Below are positions 6,059-59,703 of a DNA stretch of 64,000 bases, in pieces. The DNA is taken from NCBI GenBank assembly GCA_015057515.1, contig SVED01000001.1, positions 1 through 64,000 on the forward strand, read 5' to 3'. Positions within the stretch are counted from its first letter, which is position 1. The number at the start of each line of letters is the position of its first letter. This stretch comes from Lachnospiraceae bacterium (GTDB taxonomy: Bacteria; Bacillota; Clostridia; Lachnospirales; Lachnospiraceae). A program made the translations under genes and the position numbers. A model generated the notes under the pieces. It was not told the DNA's origin. It did no database searches and was given only the letters and a program-made list of their open reading frames with translations.

Positions 6059-6100
6059 TACATTATAGTATATTGCTGTTATAGGAAAATGGAGGTAAAA

Positions 6101-6925
6101 ATGAGAGAATTAGATATTAAGGAAACTCAAAAAATTTCCCTGGAAATACTAAAAACAGTTGCTGATATATGTGAAGAAAAGGGTTTTAGATATTGTCTTA
6201 TATATGGAACTTTAATAGGTGCAATAAGACACTCTGGTTATATTCCATGGGATGATGATGTGGATATAATGATGCCTAGAAAAGATTATGAAGAGTTTCT
6301 TAAGTATTTTGGTGAACATATTAGTGATCATCCACATTTGGAGATTTTTAATCCAACAACCTGTGAAAAATATCCATATATGATTACAAGAATAAGTGAT
6401 AATAGATATTCTATAGATATGGCAAATGAAAAGCCATATGGAATGGGTGTATTTATTGACATATATCCATATGATGGTTTGGGAAATACCAGTGAAGAAG
6501 CGTTGAAGTTTGGAATGAAGGGAGATAGATTATCATCTCTGTGTTATCAGGCAACGAGACAAAGGTATGCTGTAGAGACAACAACTTCAGCACTTAGAAA
6601 GGTACTTAAGTTGCCGGTATTCCTTTTTTCAAAGTTGTGTGGAAAAAATGTATTTCAAAGAAAGCTTGCAAAGCTGGCAGGTCAAAAAGCTTATGACGAT
6701 TGCGAGTATGTGGGCTGTGTAGTATGGCTATCTGGTGGCGAGAAGGATATATTTGAGAGACGTATGTTTGATGAGTGTATAATGCATCCTTATGAGAAAT
6801 ATGAATTCCGTGTTCCTAAGGAGTATGATGCAATCCTCAGACATACCTATGGTGATTATATGCAGCTGCCACCTGAAAAGGATCGTGTAGGTCATCACAA
6901 TTACAAAGTTTACGAGAAAAAGTAA
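6101..6925 (+). CDS. licD: LicD-family phosphocholine transferase
   Basis: LicD proteins transfer phosphocholine from CDP-choline to a glycan in Haemophilus and pneumococcus; related proteins handle other phosphodiester groups. The 274-residue protein has the family hallmark YGTLIGAIRHSGYIPWDDDVDI near residues 37-58, with the nucleotidyltransferase-like acidic cluster DDDVD, then MPRKDYEEF and FIDIYPYDG. No signal peptide. The track starts at ATG 6089, but GGAGG sits at 6091-6095, so ATG 6101 is preferred. The next gene is a LicC-LicA fusion, which supports choline as the head group. There is only a weak AT hairpin between this gene and the following promoter. Confidence 0.87.
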   Translation: MRELDIKETQKISLEILKTVADICEEKGFRYCLIYGTLIGAIRHSGYIPWDDDVDIMMPRKDYEEFLKYFGEHISDHPHLEIFNPTTCEKYPYMITRISDNRYSIDMANEKPYGMGVFIDIYPYDGLGNTSEEALKFGMKGDRLSSLCYQATRQRYAVETTTSALRKVLKLPVFLFSKLCGKNVFQRKLAKLAGQKAYDDCEYVGCVVWLSGGEKDIFERRMFDECIMHPYEKYEFRVPKEYDAILRHTYGDYMQLPPEKDRVGHHNYKVYEKK

Positions 6926-6943: not shown

Positions 6944-6972
6944 TTGACAAATGGAAGATAAGTGTGTATATT
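6944..6972 (+). promoter_or_regulatory. Promoter of the choline operon
   Basis: TTGACA, a 17-base spacer and TATATT lie in the gap after licD. Transcription would begin near 6980, downstream of the track's start at 6951, which supports ATG 7011 as the true start of the next gene. The short leader can form CTTGT/ACAAG just ahead of the ribosome binding site. Confidence 0.72.
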
Positions 6973-7010
6973 GTACTTGTCTGTTCACGAAAACAAGAAA
7001 GGATGAGTTT

Positions 7011-8771
7011 ATGAACAAGCAAGAATTTGATTTGATGAACGCAATATATAACCTTGGTTATGAAAACCAAAGAGAGCTTGCGGAAAGCAGTGGTTATTCC
7101 TTGGGAAGTGTTAATAAGTCTCTCAAGGTACTTGTGGACCAGGGTTATCTCAGCGAAGATATGAAGCTGACATCAAAGGCCAATAAAGAATTTAACGATA
7201 AAAAACCTAAAAACGCCGTAATACTTGCAGCAGGCTACGGAATGAGAATGGTTCCTATAAATACAGAAACACCAAAGGGCTTGCTTTGTATAAACAACGA
7301 GGCGCTCATTGAACGTTTAATAAAACAGCTTCATGAGGTGGGAATTACTGAGATTGATGTTGTTGTAGGTTTTATGAAAGAAAATTACGAGTACTTAATA
7401 GATGAGTTTGGTGTAAACCTTGTAGTAAATGAGGAGTACAACAGAAAAAACAATCTTCATTCATTAAGTCTTGTGGCAGATAAAATTTCTAACACATACA
7501 TTGTTCCTTGTGATGTATGGTGCAAGGAGAATCCATTTAGCGAGAGAGAATTGTATTCCTGGTATATGGTAAGTGACTCCATGGATGATGATAGTGATGT
7601 TTATGTAAATAGAAAAAACGAGTTAGTTGCTGTGGGTGGTCAGGAGCCAGGCAATAAGATGATTGGTATTTCTTACATGACTATGCCAGAGGCAAAGATT
7701 TTAGTAGAAAATATTAAGAATCTTTCTAAGTCAAAGAGGTATGACAACTCCTTCTGGGAGGAAGGCTTATACAAAAATGGCAAAATGATAGTTAATTCAA
7801 GGGTAGTGAAGGATGAAAATGCAGTTGAGATAAATACCTTTGAGCAGCTAAGAGAAATAGACAAGGAGTCAAATCATCTTAAATCAGATGCTATAGAGAT
7901 TATTTGTAAGGCCCTCAATGTAAAGATAGATGATATCAAGAATATTGAAACCTTGAAAAAGGGAATGACCAATCGCTCATTTATTTTTTCTGTTGGGGAT
8001 AACAAGTACATTATGAGAATTCCTGGTGAGGGAACTGACAAGATAATTAATCGTAAACAGGAAGCTGCGGTTTATGATGTCATAAATGGAAAAGGTATAT
8101 GTGAAGACATATATTATATGAATCCTGACAATGGATATAAAATAACAAAGTTCCTTTCAAATACCAGGGTTTGTGATTGCGAAAATGAGGAAGATTTAAA
8201 AATTGCTATGGATAAGCTTAGAAAATTCCATGGCATGGAACTTAAAGTTGATCATGTGTTTGATGTGTTTGAAAAAATTGACTATTATGAATCACTTTGG
8301 GGTGATGTGCCATCGGTATATAAGGATCACAAAGAAACTCGAAGAAAAGTATTTGAGCTTAAAGAGTTTATTGATTCTCAGGAGAAGAAATGGACCCTTA
8401 CCCATATAGATGCAGTTGCTGATAATTTCCTTTTTGTTGAGGGAGAGGAAGTTATGCTTATAGACTGGGAATATGCAGGAATGCAGGATCCACATGTAGA
8501 TATTGCCATGTTTTGCATATATGCCATGTATGATAAAGACGCTATTGACAGGCTGATTGATATTTATTTCGAAAATCAGTGTGACGTGGCTACCAGAGCA
8601 AAAATATATTGTTATATTGCAATGTGTGGATTTCTTTGGAGTAACTGGTGCGAGTATAAAAGACAGCTTGGCGTGGAGTTTGGAGAATATACATTAAGGC
8701 AATATAGATACGCCAAAGAGTTTTATGCATATGCCAAAGAGCTTATAGAAAATGACAGGAGTGGCAAATAG
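7011..8771 (+). CDS. Winged-helix / CTP:phosphocholine cytidylyltransferase / choline kinase fusion
   Basis: This 586-residue protein appears to join three parts. Residues 1-60 are a MarR-like winged helix (QRELAESSGYSLGSVNKSLK). Residues 67-300 are a LicC-type nucleotidyltransferase with NAVILAAGYGMRMVP, TPKGLL and VPCDVW. Residues 310-586 are a LicA-type choline kinase with KKGMTNRSF, YIMRIPGEGTD, the Brenner-type LTHIDAVADNFL and LIDWEYAGMQDPHVDIAMF. It could therefore phosphorylate choline and form CDP-choline in one chain, with the winged helix sensing or regulating. ATG 7011 has AAAGGA upstream; the earlier track start lies within the promoter. The next gene begins on the base after the stop. 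LicC-LicA fusions are known in other bacteria; the DNA-binding role of the N-terminus is inferred. Confidence 0.88.
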   Translation: MNKQEFDLMNAIYNLGYENQRELAESSGYSLGSVNKSLKVLVDQGYLSEDMKLTSKANKEFNDKKPKNAVILAAGYGMRMVPINTETPKGLLCINNEALIERLIKQLHEVGITEIDVVVGFMKENYEYLIDEFGVNLVVNEEYNRKNNLHSLSLVADKISNTYIVPCDVWCKENPFSERELYSWYMVSDSMDDDSDVYVNRKNELVAVGGQEPGNKMIGISYMTMPEAKILVENIKNLSKSKRYDNSFWEEGLYKNGKMIVNSRVVKDENAVEINTFEQLREIDKESNHLKSDAIEIICKALNVKIDDIKNIETLKKGMTNRSFIFSVGDNKYIMRIPGEGTDKIINRKQEAAVYDVINGKGICEDIYYMNPDNGYKITKFLSNTRVCDCENEEDLKIAMDKLRKFHGMELKVDHVFDVFEKIDYYESLWGDVPSVYKDHKETRRKVFELKEFIDSQEKKWTLTHIDAVADNFLFVEGEEVMLIDWEYAGMQDPHVDIAMFCIYAMYDKDAIDRLIDIYFENQCDVATRAKIYCYIAMCGFLWSNWCEYKRQLGVEFGEYTLRQYRYAKEFYAYAKELIENDRSGK

Positions 8772-9497
8772 ATGGCAAATAATAAAGTTGAGAGAGCAAT
8801 TATAATGGCTGCCGGGAAAGGGGATCGAATGAGACCACTCACAAATGAAGTGCCTAAGCCTATGGTAAAAGTCAATGGTACAAGAATGATAGATACCGTA
8901 ATTAAAGGATTGCTTAATAACAAAATTACAGAAATCTATGTTGTGGTTGGTTACATGAAGGAGAAATTTTATGAACTTAGGGAAACCTATCCTGAGATAC
9001 AGTTTATAGAAAATCCATATTTTGATGTATGTAACAATATATCATCCCTATACGTCGCAAGGGAGCATATAGAAAACGCCATTATATTAGATGGAGATCA
9101 AGTCATATATAATGATGAGGTGCTTAAAAAAGATTTTGAAAAATCCGGATACAATGCTGTTTGGACTGACTGTGAAACCAATGAGTGGTTGATGCAGGTT
9201 GAAGAAGATAGCGTAACATCCTGTAGCAGAACCGGTGGTAAAGGCGGCTGGCAGTTGTACAGTGTGTCCAGATGGAGTAAAGAGGATGCAGAAAAATTAA
9301 AACGATATGTGGAAATAGAATTTATAGATAAGGAAAATAGAGACATATATTGGGATGATGTAGCCATGTTCCTGCATTTTGATGAATTTGATTTGGGAAT
9401 ACAAAAAATGCAGAGTGGGGATGTTAAAGAAATTGACAGCTTAGAAGAACTGGTTGATATTGATAAAAACTATAAAGAGTATTTGATGAAGGAGTAA
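8772..9497 (+). CDS. Second LicC-like nucleotidyltransferase
   Basis: This 241-residue stand-alone nucleotidyltransferase resembles CTP:phosphocholine cytidylyltransferase. It shows RAIIMAAGKGDRMRPLT (nucleotide-binding loop), VPKPMVKVNG, EIYVVVGYMKEKF, and ILDGDQVIY with the metal-binding acidic residues. It starts immediately after the stop of the fusion gene, with GGAG about ten bases upstream, and ends 3 bp before the transporter gene, so it is clearly in the same operon. Two cytidylyltransferase domains in one operon suggest either redundancy or a second phospho-alcohol substrate such as phosphoethanolamine; the sequence does not decide. Confidence 0.85.
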   Translation: MANNKVERAIIMAAGKGDRMRPLTNEVPKPMVKVNGTRMIDTVIKGLLNNKITEIYVVVGYMKEKFYELRETYPEIQFIENPYFDVCNNISSLYVAREHIENAIILDGDQVIYNDEVLKKDFEKSGYNAVWTDCETNEWLMQVEEDSVTSCSRTGGKGGWQLYSVSRWSKEDAEKLKRYVEIEFIDKENRDIYWDDVAMFLHFDEFDLGIQKMQSGDVKEIDSLEELVDIDKNYKEYLMKE

Positions 9498-9500
9498 GAG

Positions 9501-11027
9501 ATGGGAACAAAAAATGAAAAAAAGAGAAAAATTGACTGGATTATAACTGTAGTTCCAGTTGTAATTATTGTAGGATTAGCAATTTTATTCTTTGTATTTC
9601 CTACACAGTCAAACAATGTTTTAAGTGATGTAAGATTCTTTTTGGGAGATACTTTAGGTACATATTATTTAGTGATTGGATTAGGTATTTTCCTTATATC
9701 GATTTTCTTAGCTACATCTAAGTATGGAAATATTGTTCTTGGTGGAAAGGATGAGAAGCCTAAATATTCATTCTTTACATGGGGAGCAATGATGTTTACC
9801 TGTGGATTAGCAGCAGATATACTTTTTTATTCATTCTCTGAATGGATTTTATATGCAACAGATCCACATATTGCAGAGCTTGGAAGTGTTCAGGACTGGG
9901 CTAGTGTTTTCCCACTATTTCACTGGAGCTTTATTCCATGGGCATTTTATCTTGTATTAGCTGTTGCCTTTGGTTTTATGCTTCATGTTAGAAAAAGACA
10001 TCGTCAAAAATATTCAGAGGCATGTAGACCTATTCTTGGTAAGCACACAGATGGTGTGGCAGGCCGAGTTATAGATTTGTTGGCTGTTTTTGCTTTGTTA
10101 GCCGGAACTGCTACAACCTTTAGTGTAGCAACACCACTTATGGCAAGTGTAATAAATAAGCTTTTTGGTGTTAGCCTTAATACAACTATGGTCACAATAG
10201 TTATCTTAGTTATAACATGTATTATATATACATACACATTACTTCATGGATTTAAAGGAATTGGTATATTAGCAAAGCTTTGTATGTATATGTTCTTCGG
10301 GTTACTCTTATTTGTTTTTATATTTGGTGGAGAGGCAGGATATATTATAGATACAGGAGTTGCTTCTCTCGGTAGAATGATACAAAACTTCTTTGGATTA
10401 GCAACTGAGACCGACCCACTTAGAAACACATCCTTCCCACAGAATTGGACTATATATTACTGGGCATATTGGATGGTATGGTGTGTTGCGACACCATTCT
10501 TCATAGGAAACATATCAAGAGGAAGAACTATAAAGCAGACTATAATAGGTGGATATGTCTTTGGAGTTGGTTCAACATTAGTAAGTTTTATCGTTTTAGG
10601 AAATTACTCACTTGGTAAGCAGCTCAAAGGTGGAGTTGATTTTATAACATCATTTAGCGAGACTGGTGACTTGTATGAATTAATTACGAATATTATTGAT
10701 ACTTTACCATGTGCACCTTTTGTGCTCGTGTTACTGTTGCTGACTATGGTGGCATTTTACGCCACATCCTTTGATTCTATAGCATATACGGCATCTTGCT
10801 ACTGTTATAATAATCTTGATGAAAATGAACAACCACACAAGTTAATTCAGTTAATGTGGTGTATATTATTAATTGTATTGCCTATAGCATTACTTTTCTC
10901 AGAAAGCTCAATGAGCAATATCCAATCTGTAAGTATAATTGCTGCATTCCCAATTGGAATTGTAATGATATTTATAATTTCAAGTTTTATGAAAGATGCA
11001 AAACAATATATGATTTCTGATAAGTAA
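9501..11027 (+). CDS. BCCT-family transporter, probable choline uptake
   Basis: BCCT proteins import choline, betaine or carnitine with sodium or protons, or exchange them. The 508-residue protein has about 12 membrane spans, beginning at residue 13, and the family region around NWTIYYWAYWMVWC followed by GNISRGRTIKQ, near residues 315-345. The early segment FTWGAMMFTCGLAADILFYS is also typical. The usual tryptophan pattern in the signature is slightly altered (WAYW). AAGGAG precedes the start. It is the last gene of the choline operon and a terminator follows. Choline as substrate is inferred from the LicA/LicC neighbours. Confidence 0.9.
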   Translation: MGTKNEKKRKIDWIITVVPVVIIVGLAILFFVFPTQSNNVLSDVRFFLGDTLGTYYLVIGLGIFLISIFLATSKYGNIVLGGKDEKPKYSFFTWGAMMFTCGLAADILFYSFSEWILYATDPHIAELGSVQDWASVFPLFHWSFIPWAFYLVLAVAFGFMLHVRKRHRQKYSEACRPILGKHTDGVAGRVIDLLAVFALLAGTATTFSVATPLMASVINKLFGVSLNTTMVTIVILVITCIIYTYTLLHGFKGIGILAKLCMYMFFGLLLFVFIFGGEAGYIIDTGVASLGRMIQNFFGLATETDPLRNTSFPQNWTIYYWAYWMVWCVATPFFIGNISRGRTIKQTIIGGYVFGVGSTLVSFIVLGNYSLGKQLKGGVDFITSFSETGDLYELITNIIDTLPCAPFVLVLLLLTMVAFYATSFDSIAYTASCYCYNNLDENEQPHKLIQLMWCILLIVLPIALLFSESSMSNIQSVSIIAAFPIGIVMIFIISSFMKDAKQYMISDK

Positions 11028-11040
11028 AATATAGTTAATG

Positions 11041-11072
11041 AGGGTCTGGCATTTAGCCGGACCCTTTATTTT
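11041..11072 (+). terminator. Intrinsic terminator of the choline operon
   Basis: AGGGTCTGGC pairs with GCCGGACCCT across a four-base loop, followed by TTTATTTTCTTT. It lies 13 bp after the BCCT stop. Confidence 0.8.
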
Positions 11073-11100: not shown

Positions 11101-11129
11101 TTGACAAAATATGACTAAATAGGTATAGT
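11101..11129 (+). promoter_or_regulatory. Promoter of the first CAP-repeat protein gene
   Basis: TTGACA, 17 bases, TATAGT. The same pair of hexamers and spacing occurs before the next CAP gene at 12459-12487, suggesting common regulation. Confidence 0.75.
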
Positions 11130-29893: not shown

Positions 29894-32800
29894 ATGAAAA
29901 AATTTAAGCTCAGGCTTGCAGTGTTGATGTCCCTTATGACCAGTTTGTTTATAGGTGTTCCAGTATGTGCTGCAGAAGCTGATGGAGTGAATATAGAAGC
30001 AGAGGAAAGTACTGAGACAAGCATTGAAGAAGTGGCAGAAAGCACTGAGATAAGTGTGGAAGAAGCGGAAGTGCTTGCTGCAACTACCAATGGCTGGGTA
30101 GAGAACTCAGACGGTACTTGGTCATACTACGAAAATGGTACCATGGCAAAAAGTAAGATACTTTGCATAGGCGGTTTATACTATGGTTTTGATTACACTG
30201 GTGTGATGTATGAAAATACTTTATTTCAGGGGATTAATCAATATGCAGATCAATATGTATCTTATCATTACGCAAAGGCAGATGGTTCTCTGTTAGTAAA
30301 TAGCTGGTATGAAGATTCTTACGGTGAATGGTATTATTTTGGTGAGGCAGGATCTGGACACAATGGTACAAAAAAAATAAATAATGTACTGTATTATTTT
30401 AGCGGTGGTCATATGCTTACGGATACGGTTGTTGGATATGAATACTGCCCTTATTATGTATCAGATTTAGGTGTTGCAACCCCTATAAATGCCAATGGCT
30501 GGACTCAGATTGGCAATGAATGGTTTTATGCTCGTGGCGGACAGCCTGTGAGTAATAAAGTAGTATTGATAAACGGCTCTTATTATGCTTTTGGCGGTGA
30601 TGGACATATGTTGTCCAATGAAGCGGCATCTGTTTATGTATACTTTTCTGATTATGGAAGTAACATGTATACAGTTTGTGCAAAAGCAGATGGTACGCTA
30701 TATACCAACAGCTGGTATCAGGACGCCTATGGCAATTGGTACTATTGTAGAGAGGATGGTACAGTTCCAAGTGGATTATGTACAATCAATGGCAAGCAGT
30801 ACTATTTTGATACTTATGATGGATATATGTATACTAATAGGAGTTTTACACGTAACAAAGTATCTTATTATGCAGATGAGGACGGTATAGTCACAGAGAT
30901 TAAGAATAATACCTGGATTAAGGTCAACGGTATGTGGCGTTACTATAGAGATGGCGCTTACCTTAAAAGCGGTATATATCAGATAGGTTCAGAGTCATAT
31001 TATTTCGATTATAATGCAACATGATGTCTAATTACCGTTTCTCGTATAATGTATCAGGAGTTGGAAGTCGCTATTTTTATGCTAAATCAAGTGGAGCTCT
31101 GGCAAAGAATGAATGGGTATACTCAGATGGTGAATGGTACTATTTTGACGCAAATGGATATGGTTTATCTGGTGAAAAAACTATAGACGGAAAAACATAC
31201 TATTTCTCATCTGGACGTATGATGACTAATTATGCTGTTAGCAATCGTCTCTATGGAGCCGATGGAGTTAAGGTAGAAGGAAAAACAGGTTGGTACCTAC
31301 TTGATGGTGAATGGTACTATTTCAAAAGCTCTGGTGTGTTATATTATGGCATGCTTACCCTAAATGGCAATAAGTATTATTTGAATCCTTCCCTATATCA
31401 AAACTCTAATTATTTCGTCGTTAGCGGTATTTTATACCAAGCAAAGGATAAAAACGGTGTTCTTACGGCTATAACAAAGGATGGTTGGTATGAGGATGGC
31501 TCATATACCTACTATGTTAAGGATGGAAAGGTATTTAGTAATGGTTGGGTAACCTCAGGTACCAGCAAATACTATATAGCCGGTAATCATATGGTATGCA
31601 ATAATTATCATTTCTATATATCTGGTAGCTACTATGCCTTTGATGCCACAGGTAAGATGTTTACAAACACCTGGTTAAAGTATAACTCATCTTATGTATA
31701 TGCTTCATCCACAGGTGCTCTTGTTACCGGAAAGCAGGTTATAGGTGGTGTTACATATGAATTTAATACTGATGGAACTTTAAAGGATAGTCTTAGTGTT
31801 TCTGGAGCTGTAATAACTGAATGTACAGATTATGGCACCAAAACCTATACCCTTAAAGCAGGCTGGAATGAGATAAATGGAGTATGGTACTACGTTTTTA
31901 ATGGAGCAGTGGTTAAAGGTACTACCATGAATATAGGCGGGTTTACTTATCGCTTTGATTCCATGGGAATGATGTACAAAAATGTAGTATATGGTGGATG
32001 TTATTATGATGCTAACGGAGCAATGAAAAAGAATTGCTGGATAGAACATAATGGAAAATGGATGTATGCCCAAGAAAGTGGAAGTCTTGCTTCTTATGGT
32101 GTATATGAAATAGGTGGAAAAGAATACTTTTTCATAGATTATTATATGGTTGAAGAAGATTTTGCCTATGGTTTCTACATCTATACATTGAATTCAGATG
32201 ATTCAATCAAATCAATAAAACATACCAGCGATGACGGCTGGTATTACGTAAATAATATACCATATATGATAGTTGATGGTAATTTCTACACCGGTTGGAT
32301 AAATGATGCCTATTTTGAAAGAGGTAGAAAGGTATACAACAGCTTACTAACCAAGAACTCAACCTACGGAAAGGATACCTACTACTGCATAGAAAATGGA
32401 AGCCTCGTTCGAAATGCGTGGTGTAATGATGATAGTTCCTATGCAAAGGCAGATGGAACCCTGGCTTGTGATGAGTGGATAAATCTGGGCGGAACCTGGT
32501 ATTATCTTGATGACATTTATTATGTTACAGGTCTTAGGGAAATAGATGGTGTGACCTACTACTTTGATAAGTATGGCAGACTCAGTAAGACATATACCAC
32601 AATATCAGATGGCTGGCATCAGCTTGATACTGGCTGGTATTACGGCAGAGATGGCGTCTTTGTGAAAAATGAGCATGTATATATAGGTGGATATTGGTAT
32701 TACTTTGATTCCAATGGTAGAATGCTGGATTATTATGGCTTAACTGACGGAAGAGAATGGTCTATGGGCTGGCATAAGGTTACAGTACAAAAAACAACTG

Positions 32801-33348
32801 ATGGATATTACAAATTCCCTGATGAAGCTCAGACTGTAACTGGCTGGATATATGTTGATATTGAGGGTAATTCGGTAACTGGCTGGCAAAATATAGGTGG
32901 AGTAACTTATTATTTTGATGACGGCATTATGGTTACAGGTGCTAAATATATTAACGGTGATTTGCATCGCTTCGCAGACTCAGGTGCATACATAGGAAAG
33001 GTCGCTACAAAAGATGGCTGGTACTATGATGGAAAGAATTATTTCTACATATGTAATTATCTTGTATATTACAACAGAATAGAAATAATTGATGGCATAA
33101 GATATGGATTTGATTCTGAAGGTGTTATGGTTACCAATGCAGCTTTTTCGCCTTATTCAAGTTACGATAGTTATGACTTTTATTACTTTGGCTCATCAGG
33201 AGCACAGGTAACAAAAGAAGGTGTATACACAGACAAGTATGGCGATACTGTTTATGTTGATGGAAATGGTCATGCTTATACAGGATATGTGTATATAAGT
33301 GGTAAATTTGTGGGCATGACAAAGCAAAAAAATCTTGATATCTACTAA
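29894..33348 (+). pseudogene. Giant secreted repeat protein 5, split by a -1 frameshift
   Basis: Two ORFs, 29894-31024 (376 residues, with signal peptide and acidic linker) and 31021-33348 (775 residues, no signal peptide), together equal one paralogue: joined they give about 1152 residues, the length of gene 4. At the junction the first frame stops at TGA inside GCAACATGATG, and the second frame continues from the overlapping ATG. Adding one base restores ...DYNATMMSNY..., aligning without gaps to FDYNGVVYTNYY in gene 4. There is no ribosome binding site before the second ATG and no slippery run, so a one-base deletion or sequencing error is more likely than two genes. If real, the product would be a secreted short form without the C-terminal two thirds. 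Confidence 0.8.
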
Positions 33349-55350: not shown

Positions 55351-57363
55351 ATGAAGGCACTTATTTTAAACTCAGGTCTGGGTAGTCGTATGGGTGTGCT
55401 TACATCAGAACATCCAAAATGTATGACTGAGATTACATCAAAGGATACTATACTTAGCCGCCAACTCAAGCAGATTGTTGAGGCTGGTATTACAGAAGTG
55501 GTTATGACTACGGGGGCTTTTGATGAAGTTCTTGTGGAATATTGCAACGGATTAGATTTGCCGATTCACTTTACTTTTGTTAAGAATCCCTTGTATGCTG
55601 AGACAAACTACATATATTCAATATACTGTGCTAAGGAATATTTGATGGATGATGATATTGTTCTTATGCACGGTGACTTAGTTTTTGATAATTTAGTTTT
55701 TGATAAGGTGCTTTCCAGTGAGACAAGCTGTATGACTACAAGCTCCACCATCCCTTTGCCGGAAAAAGATTTTAAGGCAGTTATTGAAAAAGGAAAGATA
55801 ACTAAAGTAGGAATAGAATATTTTGATAGCGCAATGAGCGCTCAGCCACTTTACAAAATACTTTTGAAGGATTGGAAGATTTGGCTTGATAATATAATAG
55901 ATTTCTGCAAAAATGATAACAGAAAATGTTATGCTGAAAATGCCTTTAATCAGGTGTCAGATAGGTGTAGTATATATCCTTTAGATGTGAAGGATATGCT
56001 TTGTAATGAAATTGATAACCCAGAGGACTTAGCTATGGTTTCAGAAAAAGTTAATGAATTAGAAAATAAAACAGTATATATGAGTTTTTCTACTGATATG
56101 GTTCACAGTGGTCACATTGATATTATTAAGAAGGCGAAAAAACTCGGTAAGCTTATCATAGGTGTTTTATCTGATGAGGCAGTTGCCAGTTATAAGCGCT
56201 ATCCTCTTATGCCATTTTCAGAGAGAAAAGTAATGTTTGAAAATATTTCTGGTGTTCATAAGGTTGTTGAGCAAAAAACCTTAAGCTACAAGGAAAATCT
56301 TGAGATGCTTAAACCGGATTATGTGGTTCATGGAGATGATTGGGTAGCTGGTTTTCAAAAGCCTATTCGTGACGAGGTTGTATCGACTTTGGCAACTTAT
56401 GGAGGCGAATTAGTAGAGTTTCCTTACACTCATAGCGAAAAATTGAAGGTGCTTGAACAACGCTCCAGAGCAGAACTTTCTTTGCCTCATATGCGTCGTG
56501 CTCGTTTGAAAAAGGTTATAGAAATGAAAGGAACTATAAGTGCAATGGAGGCTCACAGCGGTCTTACCGGACTTATAGTAGAAGATACAGTAGTATATCA
56601 AAATGGCGAAGCCAGACAGTTTGATGCTATGTGGATAAGTTCTCTTTGCGATTCTACTGCAAAGGGGAAGCCGGATATTGAGCTTGTTGATATGACTTCA
56701 AGATTCCGTACAATTGATGATATTATGGAGGTTACCACTAAGCCAATTATTTTCGATGGTGATACAGGCGGGCTTACTGAGCATTTTGTGTATACTGTAA
56801 AGACACTTGAGCGTATGGGTGTTTCTATGGTTATTATAGAGGACAAGACTGGCCTCAAGAAGAATTCTCTTTTTGGTACAGAGGTTCAGCAGACTCAGGA
56901 TTCTATTCCGAACTTCTGCGAAAAAATCAAGGCTGGTAAAAAGGCACAAAAGACAAAGGATTTTATGATTTGTGCCCGTATAGAGAGTCTTATTCTTGAG
57001 CAGGGTATGGAGGATGCCTTAGAGCGTGCATTTGCTTTTGCCGGTGCTGGTGCTGATGCTGTTATGATTCACAGTCGTAAGAAAGATCCGTCAGAGATTT
57101 TCGAATTTGTTGAGAACTTTAGAGCAAAGGATAAAACAACACCTATTGTTGTAGTTCCAACTTCTTTCAATACAGTAACAGAGGAAGAGTTTAAAGACAG
57201 AGGTGTAAATATAGTTATTTATGCTAATCAGCTTACAAGAACTGCTTTCCCTGCAATGCAAAACGCAGCAAAGCTTATTTTAGAGAACCACAGAGCTAAG
57301 GAATGTGATGATATTTGTATGCCATTTAAGGACATTATCACTCTTATTCCAGAGGACAATTAA
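55351..57363 (+). CDS. Nucleotidyltransferase / cytidylyltransferase-like / PEP mutase fusion
   Basis: This 670-residue protein fuses three parts. Residues 1-230 form a LicC/PntC-like nucleotidyltransferase (ALILNSGLGSRMGVLT, LMHGDLVFD). Residues 235-375 form a HxGH cytidylyltransferase-like domain (SFSTDMVHSGHIDIIKKAKK, DYVVHGDDW). Residues 385-665 form phosphoenolpyruvate mutase, with SLCDSTAKGKPD, the metal-binding IIFDGDTGG and the diagnostic EDKTGLKKNS. PEP mutase forms the C-P bond of phosphonopyruvate. NTase-PEP mutase fusions are known to activate phosphonates as CMP esters for glycan attachment; the extra middle domain is unusual. AGGAGG precedes the start. The next two genes continue the pathway. 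Confidence 0.92.
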   Translation: MKALILNSGLGSRMGVLTSEHPKCMTEITSKDTILSRQLKQIVEAGITEVVMTTGAFDEVLVEYCNGLDLPIHFTFVKNPLYAETNYIYSIYCAKEYLMDDDIVLMHGDLVFDNLVFDKVLSSETSCMTTSSTIPLPEKDFKAVIEKGKITKVGIEYFDSAMSAQPLYKILLKDWKIWLDNIIDFCKNDNRKCYAENAFNQVSDRCSIYPLDVKDMLCNEIDNPEDLAMVSEKVNELENKTVYMSFSTDMVHSGHIDIIKKAKKLGKLIIGVLSDEAVASYKRYPLMPFSERKVMFENISGVHKVVEQKTLSYKENLEMLKPDYVVHGDDWVAGFQKPIRDEVVSTLATYGGELVEFPYTHSEKLKVLEQRSRAELSLPHMRRARLKKVIEMKGTISAMEAHSGLTGLIVEDTVVYQNGEARQFDAMWISSLCDSTAKGKPDIELVDMTSRFRTIDDIMEVTTKPIIFDGDTGGLTEHFVYTVKTLERMGVSMVIIEDKTGLKKNSLFGTEVQQTQDSIPNFCEKIKAGKKAQKTKDFMICARIESLILEQGMEDALERAFAFAGAGADAVMIHSRKKDPSEIFEFVENFRAKDKTTPIVVVPTSFNTVTEEEFKDRGVNIVIYANQLTRTAFPAMQNAAKLILENHRAKECDDICMPFKDIITLIPEDN

Positions 57364-57384
57364 TTTATAGAGAGGTCGTAGAGT

Positions 57385-58554
57385 ATGGTTGAACAAAAGG
57401 TTTTAATTGCAAGTTCAGACTATGCCCAGCTAGATGACTATATTAGGGAAAACGGTTTTAAAACCGTTTTTCTTGTATGTGATGCATCTCTGGGATTTCT
57501 AAAATTAAATGACTACTTTAATAAGGTGGAGGACCGCCTTGGTATTAGGTTAATAAAGTTTACAGATTTCAAGCCAAATCCATTGTATGAGTCTGTGGAA
57601 AAAGGCGTTGCCATATTTAATAAGGAGAAGTGTGATGCTATTTTTGCCGTAGGTGGAGGTAGTGCCATGGATGTAGCAAAATGCATTAAACTGTATTCAA
57701 ATATGGACCATACTAAGAATTATTTAGTCCAGGAGATTGTGCCAAATGAGGTGCCCCTTTTTGCAGTGCCTACTACAGCCGGTACAGGCAGTGAGGCGAC
57801 AAGATATGCCGTTATATATTTCAATGGAGAAAAGCAGTCTGTGGCAGATGTAAGCTGTATTCCGTCTACTGTTTTAATGGATGCATCTGTACTTAATACT
57901 TTGCCTCTATACCAGAAAAAGGCAACCATGTTAGATGCCTTTTGCCATGCCATAGAGTCTTTTTGGTCGGTGAATTCCACTGAGGAGAGTATGGCGTATT
58001 CCAAGGAGGCCATAGAGCTTATAATGGTGAAAAAGGAAGCATATCTTGCCAACGAGGAAGCGGGCAATGCTGCAATGCTAAGAGCCGCTAATATTGCAGG
58101 TAAGGCTATTAATATTACCCAGACAACAGCAGGACATGCCATGTGCTATAAGCTTACCAGCCTGTATGGTATTGCTCATGGTCATGCAGCTGCGTTATGT
58201 CTTTCGAAACTTTGGCGTTATATGCTTGAAAAGACGAATGAGATGTATGAAGATATTAAGACCCTTGGCGAAGGAACGGTAAATACCCATATGTGCATGG
58301 ACTCTAGGGGAGTAGAACATGTAAAGAATGTATTTGAACATATTGCAGAGGCAATGGGATGTAACGGTGCAGCTGAAGCAGTAAAGGTGTTCAATGAATT
58401 TTTAGATAGCCTGAATTTTGAGGATTTAAAGGCGAAGGAAGAGGATTATGATGTATTATGCAATTCGGTTAATCCAGTCCGTCTGAAAAATAACCCAATT
58501 GGTTTAGATAAGGCAGCTATTGATTTGTTGTATAGACAGATATGTAAAATTTAG
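57385..58554 (+). CDS. Iron-dependent phosphonoacetaldehyde reductase
   Basis: The 389-residue protein belongs to the iron-containing alcohol dehydrogenase family. Visible features are AIFAVGGGSAMDVAKCIK (NAD-binding) near residues 90-107, PTTAGTGSEATRYAVI, DAFCHAIESFWS and YGIAHGHAAALCL with metal-binding histidines. Next to PEP mutase and phosphonopyruvate decarboxylase, the expected substrate is phosphonoacetaldehyde, giving 2-hydroxyethylphosphonate. The gene contains a 22-bp perfect palindrome near its 5' end. AGAGG precedes the start. Confidence 0.87.
   Translation: MVEQKVLIASSDYAQLDDYIRENGFKTVFLVCDASLGFLKLNDYFNKVEDRLGIRLIKFTDFKPNPLYESVEKGVAIFNKEKCDAIFAVGGGSAMDVAKCIKLYSNMDHTKNYLVQEIVPNEVPLFAVPTTAGTGSEATRYAVIYFNGEKQSVADVSCIPSTVLMDASVLNTLPLYQKKATMLDAFCHAIESFWSVNSTEESMAYSKEAIELIMVKKEAYLANEEAGNAAMLRAANIAGKAINITQTTAGHAMCYKLTSLYGIAHGHAAALCLSKLWRYMLEKTNEMYEDIKTLGEGTVNTHMCMDSRGVEHVKNVFEHIAEAMGCNGAAEAVKVFNEFLDSLNFEDLKAKEEDYDVLCNSVNPVRLKNNPIGLDKAAIDLLYRQICKI
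57449..57470. repeat. 22-bp perfect palindrome inside the reductase gene
   Basis: AAAACGGTTTTAAAACCGTT plus TT forms a perfect 22-bp palindrome in the coding sequence, followed by TTCTTG. It encodes the ordinary residues ENGFKTVF. It could form a hairpin in mRNA; a function is not apparent. Confidence 0.5.
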
Positions 58555-58578
58555 TTTAGGTGATTCAAGGAGGCAAGT

Positions 58579-59703
58579 ATGAAAGTAGAAAAGTTAGTTG
58601 AAATTATAGGTTCAGATTTTTATACAGGTGTACCGGATTCACAGCTTAGAGCTTTATGTGACTATCTGATGGATACCTATGGTATTGATAAGAAGCATCA
58701 TATGATAGCCGCCAACGAGGGTAACTGTGCAGCTTTGGCAGCAGGTTACCATCTTGCAACAGGGAAGGTACCTGTTGTATATATGCAGAATTCTGGCGAA
58801 GGTAATATTATTAATCCGGTAGCATCTCTTTTGAATGACAAGGTGTATGCCATTCCAGTGATTTTTATTGTGGGGTGGAGAGGTGAACCGGGAGTTCATG
58901 ATGAGCCACAGCACATATATCAGGGTGAAGTCACTGTTAAGCTTTTAGAAGATATGGATATTAAGCCCTTTGTTATTGGAAAGGAAACTACGGAGGAAGA
59001 GCTTCTTCAGGTGATGGAGGATTATAAAAAGATACTTGCTGTTGGCAAGAATGTTGCCTTTGTTATTCGTAAGGGAGCTATATCTTACGACAAGAAAGTC
59101 GCTTACAAAAATGACAATTCTATGGTTCGTGAAGATATTATCAAGCACATTATAGCTGTTACAGGAGAGGACCCTATTGTATCTACAACAGGAAAGGCAA
59201 GTCGTGAGCTTTTTGAGGCAAGAGAGGCTTTAGCCCAGGGACATAAGTATGATTTTCTCACTGTAGGTTCCATGGGACACAGTTCATCCATAGCTCTTGG
59301 AGTAGCTATTAACAAGCCAGAAACTAAGGTATGGTGTGTTGACGGGGATGGAGCAGTGCTTATGCACATGGGTTCTATGGCGGTTCTCGGTGCGAATGCT
59401 CCGGCAAACATGGTTCATGTAATTATTAACAATGGTGCTCATGAGACAGTGGGAGGTATGCCGACGGTTGCAGCTAATATAGACTTTGTGGCAATTGCAA
59501 AGGCATGTGGATATCCGTACGCCGTTTCTGTAGATAACTTTGAAGAATTGGATAGTGAGCTTAAAGATGCAAAGACAAGAAATACGCTTAGTATGATTGA
59601 GGTTAAGTGCTCCATAGGTGCAAGAGAAGACTTGGGAAGGCCTACAACAACAGCCTTGGAGAATAAGCAAAATTTTATGGATTATTTGAAAGTTTGTAAA
59701 TAA
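58579..59703 (+). CDS. Phosphonopyruvate decarboxylase
   Basis: This TPP enzyme (374 residues) decarboxylates phosphonopyruvate to phosphonoacetaldehyde, pulling the unfavourable PEP mutase reaction forward. It shows FYTGVPDSQLRALC near the N-terminus, ANEGNCAALAAGYHLATGK with the catalytic glutamate, MGHSSSIALGVA, and the TPP-binding VDGDGAVLMHMGSMAVLG followed by INNGAHETVGGMP. AGGAGG precedes the start. It ends the long operon just before a terminator. PEP mutase, this enzyme and the reductase would together make 2-hydroxyethylphosphonate. Confidence 0.93.
   Translation: MKVEKLVEIIGSDFYTGVPDSQLRALCDYLMDTYGIDKKHHMIAANEGNCAALAAGYHLATGKVPVVYMQNSGEGNIINPVASLLNDKVYAIPVIFIVGWRGEPGVHDEPQHIYQGEVTVKLLEDMDIKPFVIGKETTEEELLQVMEDYKKILAVGKNVAFVIRKGAISYDKKVAYKNDNSMVREDIIKHIIAVTGEDPIVSTTGKASRELFEAREALAQGHKYDFLTVGSMGHSSSIALGVAINKPETKVWCVDGDGAVLMHMGSMAVLGANAPANMVHVIINNGAHETVGGMPTVAANIDFVAIAKACGYPYAVSVDNFEELDSELKDAKTRNTLSMIEVKCSIGAREDLGRPTTTALENKQNFMDYLKVCK

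Follow-up and report, generated by a model that had tools for sequence, protein, structure and literature searches.

Can an enzyme that activates choline also govern the genes through which choline is taken up and used? Within the window, as we call the whole 64,000-nucleotide stretch of DNA that was analysed, this question is raised by one gene of the fusion type listed below. The preliminary description saw in its product a MarR-like winged helix joined to both choline-activating enzymes, LicC and LicA, and guessed from the closeness of the promoter that the protein regulates its own operon. Based on a comparison that took in more than 100 relatives, we conclude that choline uptake and use are very probably under the control of the fusion enzyme itself. 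The gene and its parts are:

7011-8771, forward strand: wHTH - LicC-like - LicA fusion gene, an open reading frame of 586 aa (Pfam, PDB, AlphaFold)
7011-7205, forward strand: MarR-like winged helix, residues 1-65 (Pfam, AlphaFold model, residue conservation)
7101-7139, forward strand: predicted recognition helix, residues 31-43 (AlphaFold model)
7209-7871, forward strand: LicC-like nucleotidyltransferase domain, residues 67-287, with nucleotide motif and metal Asp (D168) kept
7893-8741, forward strand: LicA-like choline kinase domain, residues 295-577 (PDB sequence match, residue check, model)

The ATG at 7011 is preceded by AAAGGA, and a longer reading from the ATG at 6951 is not needed. When the whole protein was searched against Pfam, residues 1-47 matched HTH_24 (E 1.4e-6, 28.2 bits, cut-off 21.9). 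The isolated HTH domain matched HTH_24 with E 3.4e-8 (33.4 bits, same cut-off) and MarR_2 with E 1.6e-6 (28.6 bits, cut-off 27). Structure prediction of the N-terminal domain, which had been proposed as a check, yielded a winged-helix fold (pLDDT 90.9 for the HTH alone) that matches MarR-family structures, namely HcaR (4rgr, TM 0.83), SlyA and SlyA with DNA (3q5f); the Foldseek comparison with these structures gave E about 0.02 and prob 1.00. Since the model matches MarR structures and the three-domain order recurs in relatives, the HTH match is not a chance similarity. The domain is a MarR-like winged helix and not a MarR-family regulator: a full regulator of that family is ruled out, as the 65-residue domain runs directly into the nucleotidyltransferase and has no flanking dimerisation helices. 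MarR_EPS (TIGR04176), MarR_2 and HTH_24 have the same type of winged helix but are free-standing, and the match of the fusion to MarR_EPS is far below the cut-off (27 of 88 bits). MarR_EPS regulators are located in surface-polysaccharide clusters.

The preliminary description would have counted the absence of helix positions needed for DNA contact against its reading. These positions are present: Q20, R21, G32 and N35 are invariant among 47 aligned proteins, and S30 is nearly so. The four invariant residues are the best conserved of the HTH domain; they map to the start of helix 2 and to the recognition helix in the AlphaFold model and are predicted to face the DNA.

Among 299 genomes of the same family, 88 give some match to the fusion and about 60 hold all three domains in order, as counted from match coordinates. 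We collected 80 fusion loci in named genomes, which include Fusicatenibacter, Oliverpabstia, Butyrivibrio, Dorea, Faecalicatena, Streptococcus porci, Anaerococcus and others. Shorter forms that lack the HTH (LicC-LicA fusions) or the kinase (HTH-nucleotidyltransferases) are found as well; a LicC-LicA fusion is also known in Treponema. The tree of the enzyme part separates the clade of the window (G1, support 100/100) from a second HTH clade (G2, 90/59), and it also separates two further HTH sets and an HTH-less set.

In the window, the fusion gene stands with the following neighbours:

6089-6925, forward strand: LicD-type phosphotransferase gene, upstream and outside the operator-controlled promoter (Pfam)
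6944-6972, forward strand: sigma-70 type promoter, TTGACA (6944-6949), 17 nt, TATATT (6967-6972)
8772-9497, forward strand: stand-alone LicC-type nucleotidyltransferase (NTP2), second operon gene (Pfam, PDB, conserved order)
9501-11027, forward strand: BCCT transporter, probable choline uptake, third operon gene (Pfam, conserved order)
11040-11066, forward strand: intrinsic terminator-like stem-loop closing the operon (sequence)

The promoter that had been placed at 6944 is borne out by its sequence, which agrees with the consensus at 11 of 12 positions. Across 77 named loci, NTP2 is the next gene after the fusion in 58 and a BCCT gene lies within the next four genes in 63, whereas licD upstream is no regular part of the neighbourhood. 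The order fusion-NTP2-BCCT is thus conserved, which we count in favour of the enzyme-repressor reading given below.

The enzyme parts of the full-chain AlphaFold model (pLDDT 89.9) match pneumococcal LicA and LicC, which are separate proteins in the pneumococcus. For the kinase, Pfam assigned residues 312-510 to Choline_kinase (E 2e-20), and residues 295-569 match pneumococcal LicA (4r77, E 8e-30). The crystal structure of LicA places Tyr197, Trp251, Trp254, Tyr268, Asp176, Thr29, Val178 and Glu213 at choline (PMC4364537). The fusion kinase is a clear homologue of LicA (4r77/4r7b): equivalents of T29, D176, V178, N181, D194, Y197, W251, W254 and Y268 are present, including the choline aromatics (Y488, W543, W546 and Y560 in the fusion) and the catalytic residues (D467, N472 and D485), and Glu213 is replaced by Tyr504.

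The middle domain has the LicC fold. Residues 69-169 match NTP_transf_3, residues 68-284 match LicC (1jyk, E 3e-26) and the modelled domain superposes on 1jyk with TM 0.84; the nucleotide motif is kept, and the equivalent of the metal-binding Asp107 is found in 79 of 79 sequences. In contrast to pneumococcal LicC, it has no equivalents of D105 and W136: in LicC numbering, D105 is replaced by P in 79/79, W136 by S in 77/79 and D192 by E in 79/79 sequences. W136 was placed by alignment, and we take it to belong to the choline site of the LicC structure. The roles of D105 and D192 in LicC are from PMC6697681. Among 69 sequences of the stand-alone NTP2, 66 retain W136 and 49 retain D105; the product of 8772-9497 itself has the phosphocholine-site residues and is nearer to pneumococcal LicC (122 bits) than the fused domain is (95 bits). 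Because the fused domain has lost D105 and W136, which NTP2 keeps, NTP2 is probably the working phosphocholine cytidylyltransferase of the operon. Thus, the three joined domains are confirmed, but the earlier view that both enzymes activate choline is firm for the kinase and doubtful for the fused LicC, with D105, W136 and D192 of its phosphocholine site all replaced. The annotation changes accordingly: this LicC-like domain probably does not serve as the operon's working LicC, and we infer that it has another role, either catalytic or sensory.

If the winged helix acts on DNA, where would it bind? The upstream regions of orthologues first showed TGTTCA between the -10 box and the ribosome site, and spacings of 0-60 were then scanned. 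In the window, this element is part of an exact inverted repeat, TGTTCA-N24-TGAACA, at 6982-7017, just 3' of the promoter:

6982-6987, forward strand: left operator half-site TGTTCA (extended: TGTTCACGAAA, to 6992), about +3 from the expected transcription start, conserved in orthologues
6998-7003, forward strand: ribosome binding site AAAGGA, between the operator halves (from sequence)
7012-7017, forward strand: right operator half-site TGAACA, in the start codon (aTGAACAag), 24 nt from the left half

The exact N24 pair occurs as a single copy in the 2.15-Mb genome, at the fusion gene. With at most one mismatch, TGTTCA-N24/25-TGAACA was found at 62 of the 80 named fusion loci, a set that partly overlaps the genomes that first showed the motif and is not fully independent; 40 dinucleotide shuffles gave 0.3 loci on average and never more than 3. 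The other 18 loci have at least two mismatches or a poor site. Other spacings were found at four loci or fewer each, except for spacing 0, which is the start-codon palindrome. Independent checks on the operator come from this spacing scan, from the second clade and from the transporter sites described below. Furthermore, where the protein starts with Met-Asn, the second codon is AAC in 56 of 70 genes, compared to 42% AAC elsewhere in those genes (p 9e-11), so the right half-site is constrained at the DNA level. From centre to centre, the half-sites lie 30 or 31 bp from each other, which is nearly three helical turns and unusually long for MarR dimers. Some members of the window clade also have inner palindromes (TGTTCATGAACA at the start codon), which are absent from the second clade and which we considered as possible separate dimer sites.

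Two further matches with other spacers were set aside. A spacer-22 exact match before a serine recombinase gene (locus L095, G000:C44:13182-13215) was judged unrelated; it lies over the recombinase promoter with a phage-type integrase gene nearby, and it is probably that element's own operator. A spacer-27 match in contig C73 was dismissed as it lies inside an ORF. When one or two mismatches were allowed, N24 sites numbered 172 genome-wide versus 94 in the control, with no clear regulon.

The G2 clade, which is only 37-42% identical, has the same repeat, and in most of its members TGTTCA overlaps the -10 box (TATAATGTTCA); the G1 operator starts at about +3. As an alternative explanation, the repeat might work at the RNA level, with its halves paired into a 6-bp hairpin that masks the start codon and the ribosome site of the transcript. 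The window clade would suit such a hairpin, since its ribosome site lies between the two halves and the repeat runs into the start codon. However, in the second clade and at most of the BCCT genes described below TGTTCA overlaps the -10 box and is thus upstream of the transcript start. This speaks for promoter blocking rather than an RNA structure, and we consider the hairpin extremely unlikely. At three loci with HTH-less LicC-LicA fusions, no operator was found. The guess of autoregulation is thus supported by a conserved operator that tracks the HTH-carrying fusion. No operator was found in the HTH fusions of set G4 either (recognition helix STGYIS), so not every HTH fusion works through the TGTTCA operator. 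In an HTH-fusion clade with the recognition helix STGYISQT (L048-L050 and L052), the gene lies close behind its upstream gene and has no TGTTCA repeat.

In 38 fusion-bearing genomes, exact operator copies were far above the reversed-pattern control. The intergenic copies that do not belong to the fusion lie mainly 5' of unlinked BCCT genes, in 14 of these 38 genomes; these genes match the BCCT gene of the window at E <=1e-142, and at most of them TGTTCA overlaps the -10 box. Single cases were observed at an SSS symporter gene next to another fusion, at a methyltransferase gene and at a second fusion. Two genomes (L248, L249) have two tandem operator copies before an operon for a UgpB/UgpA-like ABC importer. 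Some bacteria can import glycerophosphocholine through UgpB-type importers, and the sites suggest that glycerophosphodiester uptake is part of the choline regulon in some species. Most of the remaining copies are inside ORFs, and a small number between genes stand without an evident link to choline.

The regulon could also belong to a different, stand-alone choline regulator, in which case the repeat would be the operator of that regulator and the winged helix of the fusion would be a leftover or a dimerisation module. One genome without a detected fusion, G048 (93% complete, 250 contigs), does have a BCCT-linked site. It is the only one among 38 genomes without a detected fusion, compared to 14 of 38 with a fusion (Fisher p 0.0003). 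Moreover, the presence of the site follows that of the HTH-carrying fusion even between distant clades, the HTH-less fusions examined have no such site, the DNA-facing residues are the best conserved of the HTH domain, and no separate regulator gene was noticed within the conserved operon in the neighbourhoods of the named loci. We thus regard a stand-alone regulator as very unlikely.

By sequence comparison we established the three domains, the operator and the predicted regulon, and we found that the operator is linked to the HTH-carrying fusion. Because the operator lies over the -10 box or just after the transcription start, we infer that the protein represses; it would do so by binding the DNA directly, as an oligomer. 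We consider it highly likely that the fusion protein is a NadR-like enzyme-repressor for choline that acts on its own operon and on choline-type transporters. A dimer or larger oligomer, in which the enzyme bodies keep two winged helices at a distance, would set these on the TGTTCA half-sites on the same face of the DNA. The bound protein would block its own operon, that is, the fusion, the LicC-type enzyme and the BCCT transporter, and its targets in relatives would further include choline-type transporter genes that are not linked to the fusion. The sensing of choline supply and the setting of DNA affinity would fall to the enzyme domains; the simplest candidate for the sensor is the choline pocket of the kinase. 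It is very unlikely, in our view, that the protein binds the operator but mainly activates, or that it is a passive autoregulator without a choline-linked signal: the position of the operator fits repression, as in GbsR and OpcR (PMC7396694), and a regulon of choline-type uptake genes suggests a supply signal.

In one relative (L091; G250:C3, 5753-7510, forward strand), the kinase has lost catalytic residues (T320L, N321S, D467N and N472K), whereas Y488, W543, W546, Y560, the HTH residues and an operator with one mismatch are kept. This single case suggests that regulation can persist after catalysis has been lost. We tentatively propose, as a possibility on the doubtful side, that the aromatic pocket of the kinase is the sensor and that the winged helices bind or leave the operator according to choline occupancy rather than catalysis; L091 would then be a pure regulator descended from an enzyme. 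If so, one polypeptide would meter choline, activate it and control it transcriptionally for surface phosphocholine in gut Firmicutes.

The closest parallel in working is NadR of Enterobacterales, a trifunctional protein of HTH, adenylyltransferase and kinase that represses genes for uptake (pnuC) and synthesis (PMC12421817). Both proteins have an N-terminal HTH, a nucleotidyltransferase and a kinase in this order in one chain, and for both there are enzyme-only versions without the HTH. However, NadR combines an NMN adenylyltransferase with a ribosylnicotinamide kinase, whereas the domains here are LicC-like and LicA and are not homologous to these; the HTH here is MarR-like, the operator is a repeat with 24/25-nt spacing and the hosts belong to another phylum. 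The fusion protein is thus likened to NadR in its proposed working and is not a NadR. A second parallel is found in choline-related MarR-type repressors of Bacillus, of which OpcR acts by promoter occlusion and GbsR as a road-block (PMC7396694). They share a MarR-type winged helix associated with genes for choline or osmoprotectant uptake, and both of their operator geometries are present here. Nonetheless, GbsR and OpcR are stand-alone regulators with betaine as the output, whereas the HTH here is fused to pathway enzymes and the output would be surface phosphocholine. The pneumococcal licABC genes are controlled by CiaRH (PMC8317062).

Our literature search among open-licence papers found no published wHTH-LicC-LicA protein, no description of its operator and no similar choline regulator, nor a choline or phosphocholine regulator in Lachnospiraceae and other gut Firmicutes. 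If our reading is true, a NadR-type enzyme-repressor for choline has been built from unrelated domains, with an operator and a regulon that are defined by sequence. The operator would allow genes for choline uptake and for phosphocholine on the surface to be found in gut genomes.

Downstream of the operon, about nine consecutive genes (11167-36842) encode large proteins with choline-binding-type repeats (GWxxxxGxWYY), and the first two carry CAP domains, as judged by eye. Co-regulation of these genes with the operon was considered and rejected: the promoters at 11101 and 12459 match TTGACA-17-TATAGT and are thus similar in -35 and -10, but they have no TGTTCA element. The overlapping ORFs 29894-31024 and 31021-33348 look like one choline-binding repeat protein that is split by a frameshift.

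The window further contains a probable phosphonate cluster (55351-59703), with a gene that joins a LicC-like and a phosphoenolpyruvate-mutase-like domain (55351-57363), an iron alcohol dehydrogenase-like gene (57385) and a phosphonopyruvate decarboxylase-like gene (58579). By eye, it resembles the PntC/Ppm fusions of PMC6697681. Those PntC fusions are akin to the choline fusion in that LicC-like cytidylyltransferases are joined to other enzymes of surface decoration; they differ in their substrate, aminoethylphosphonate, and the main text of that paper makes no mention of helix-turn-helix, winged or MarR domains.
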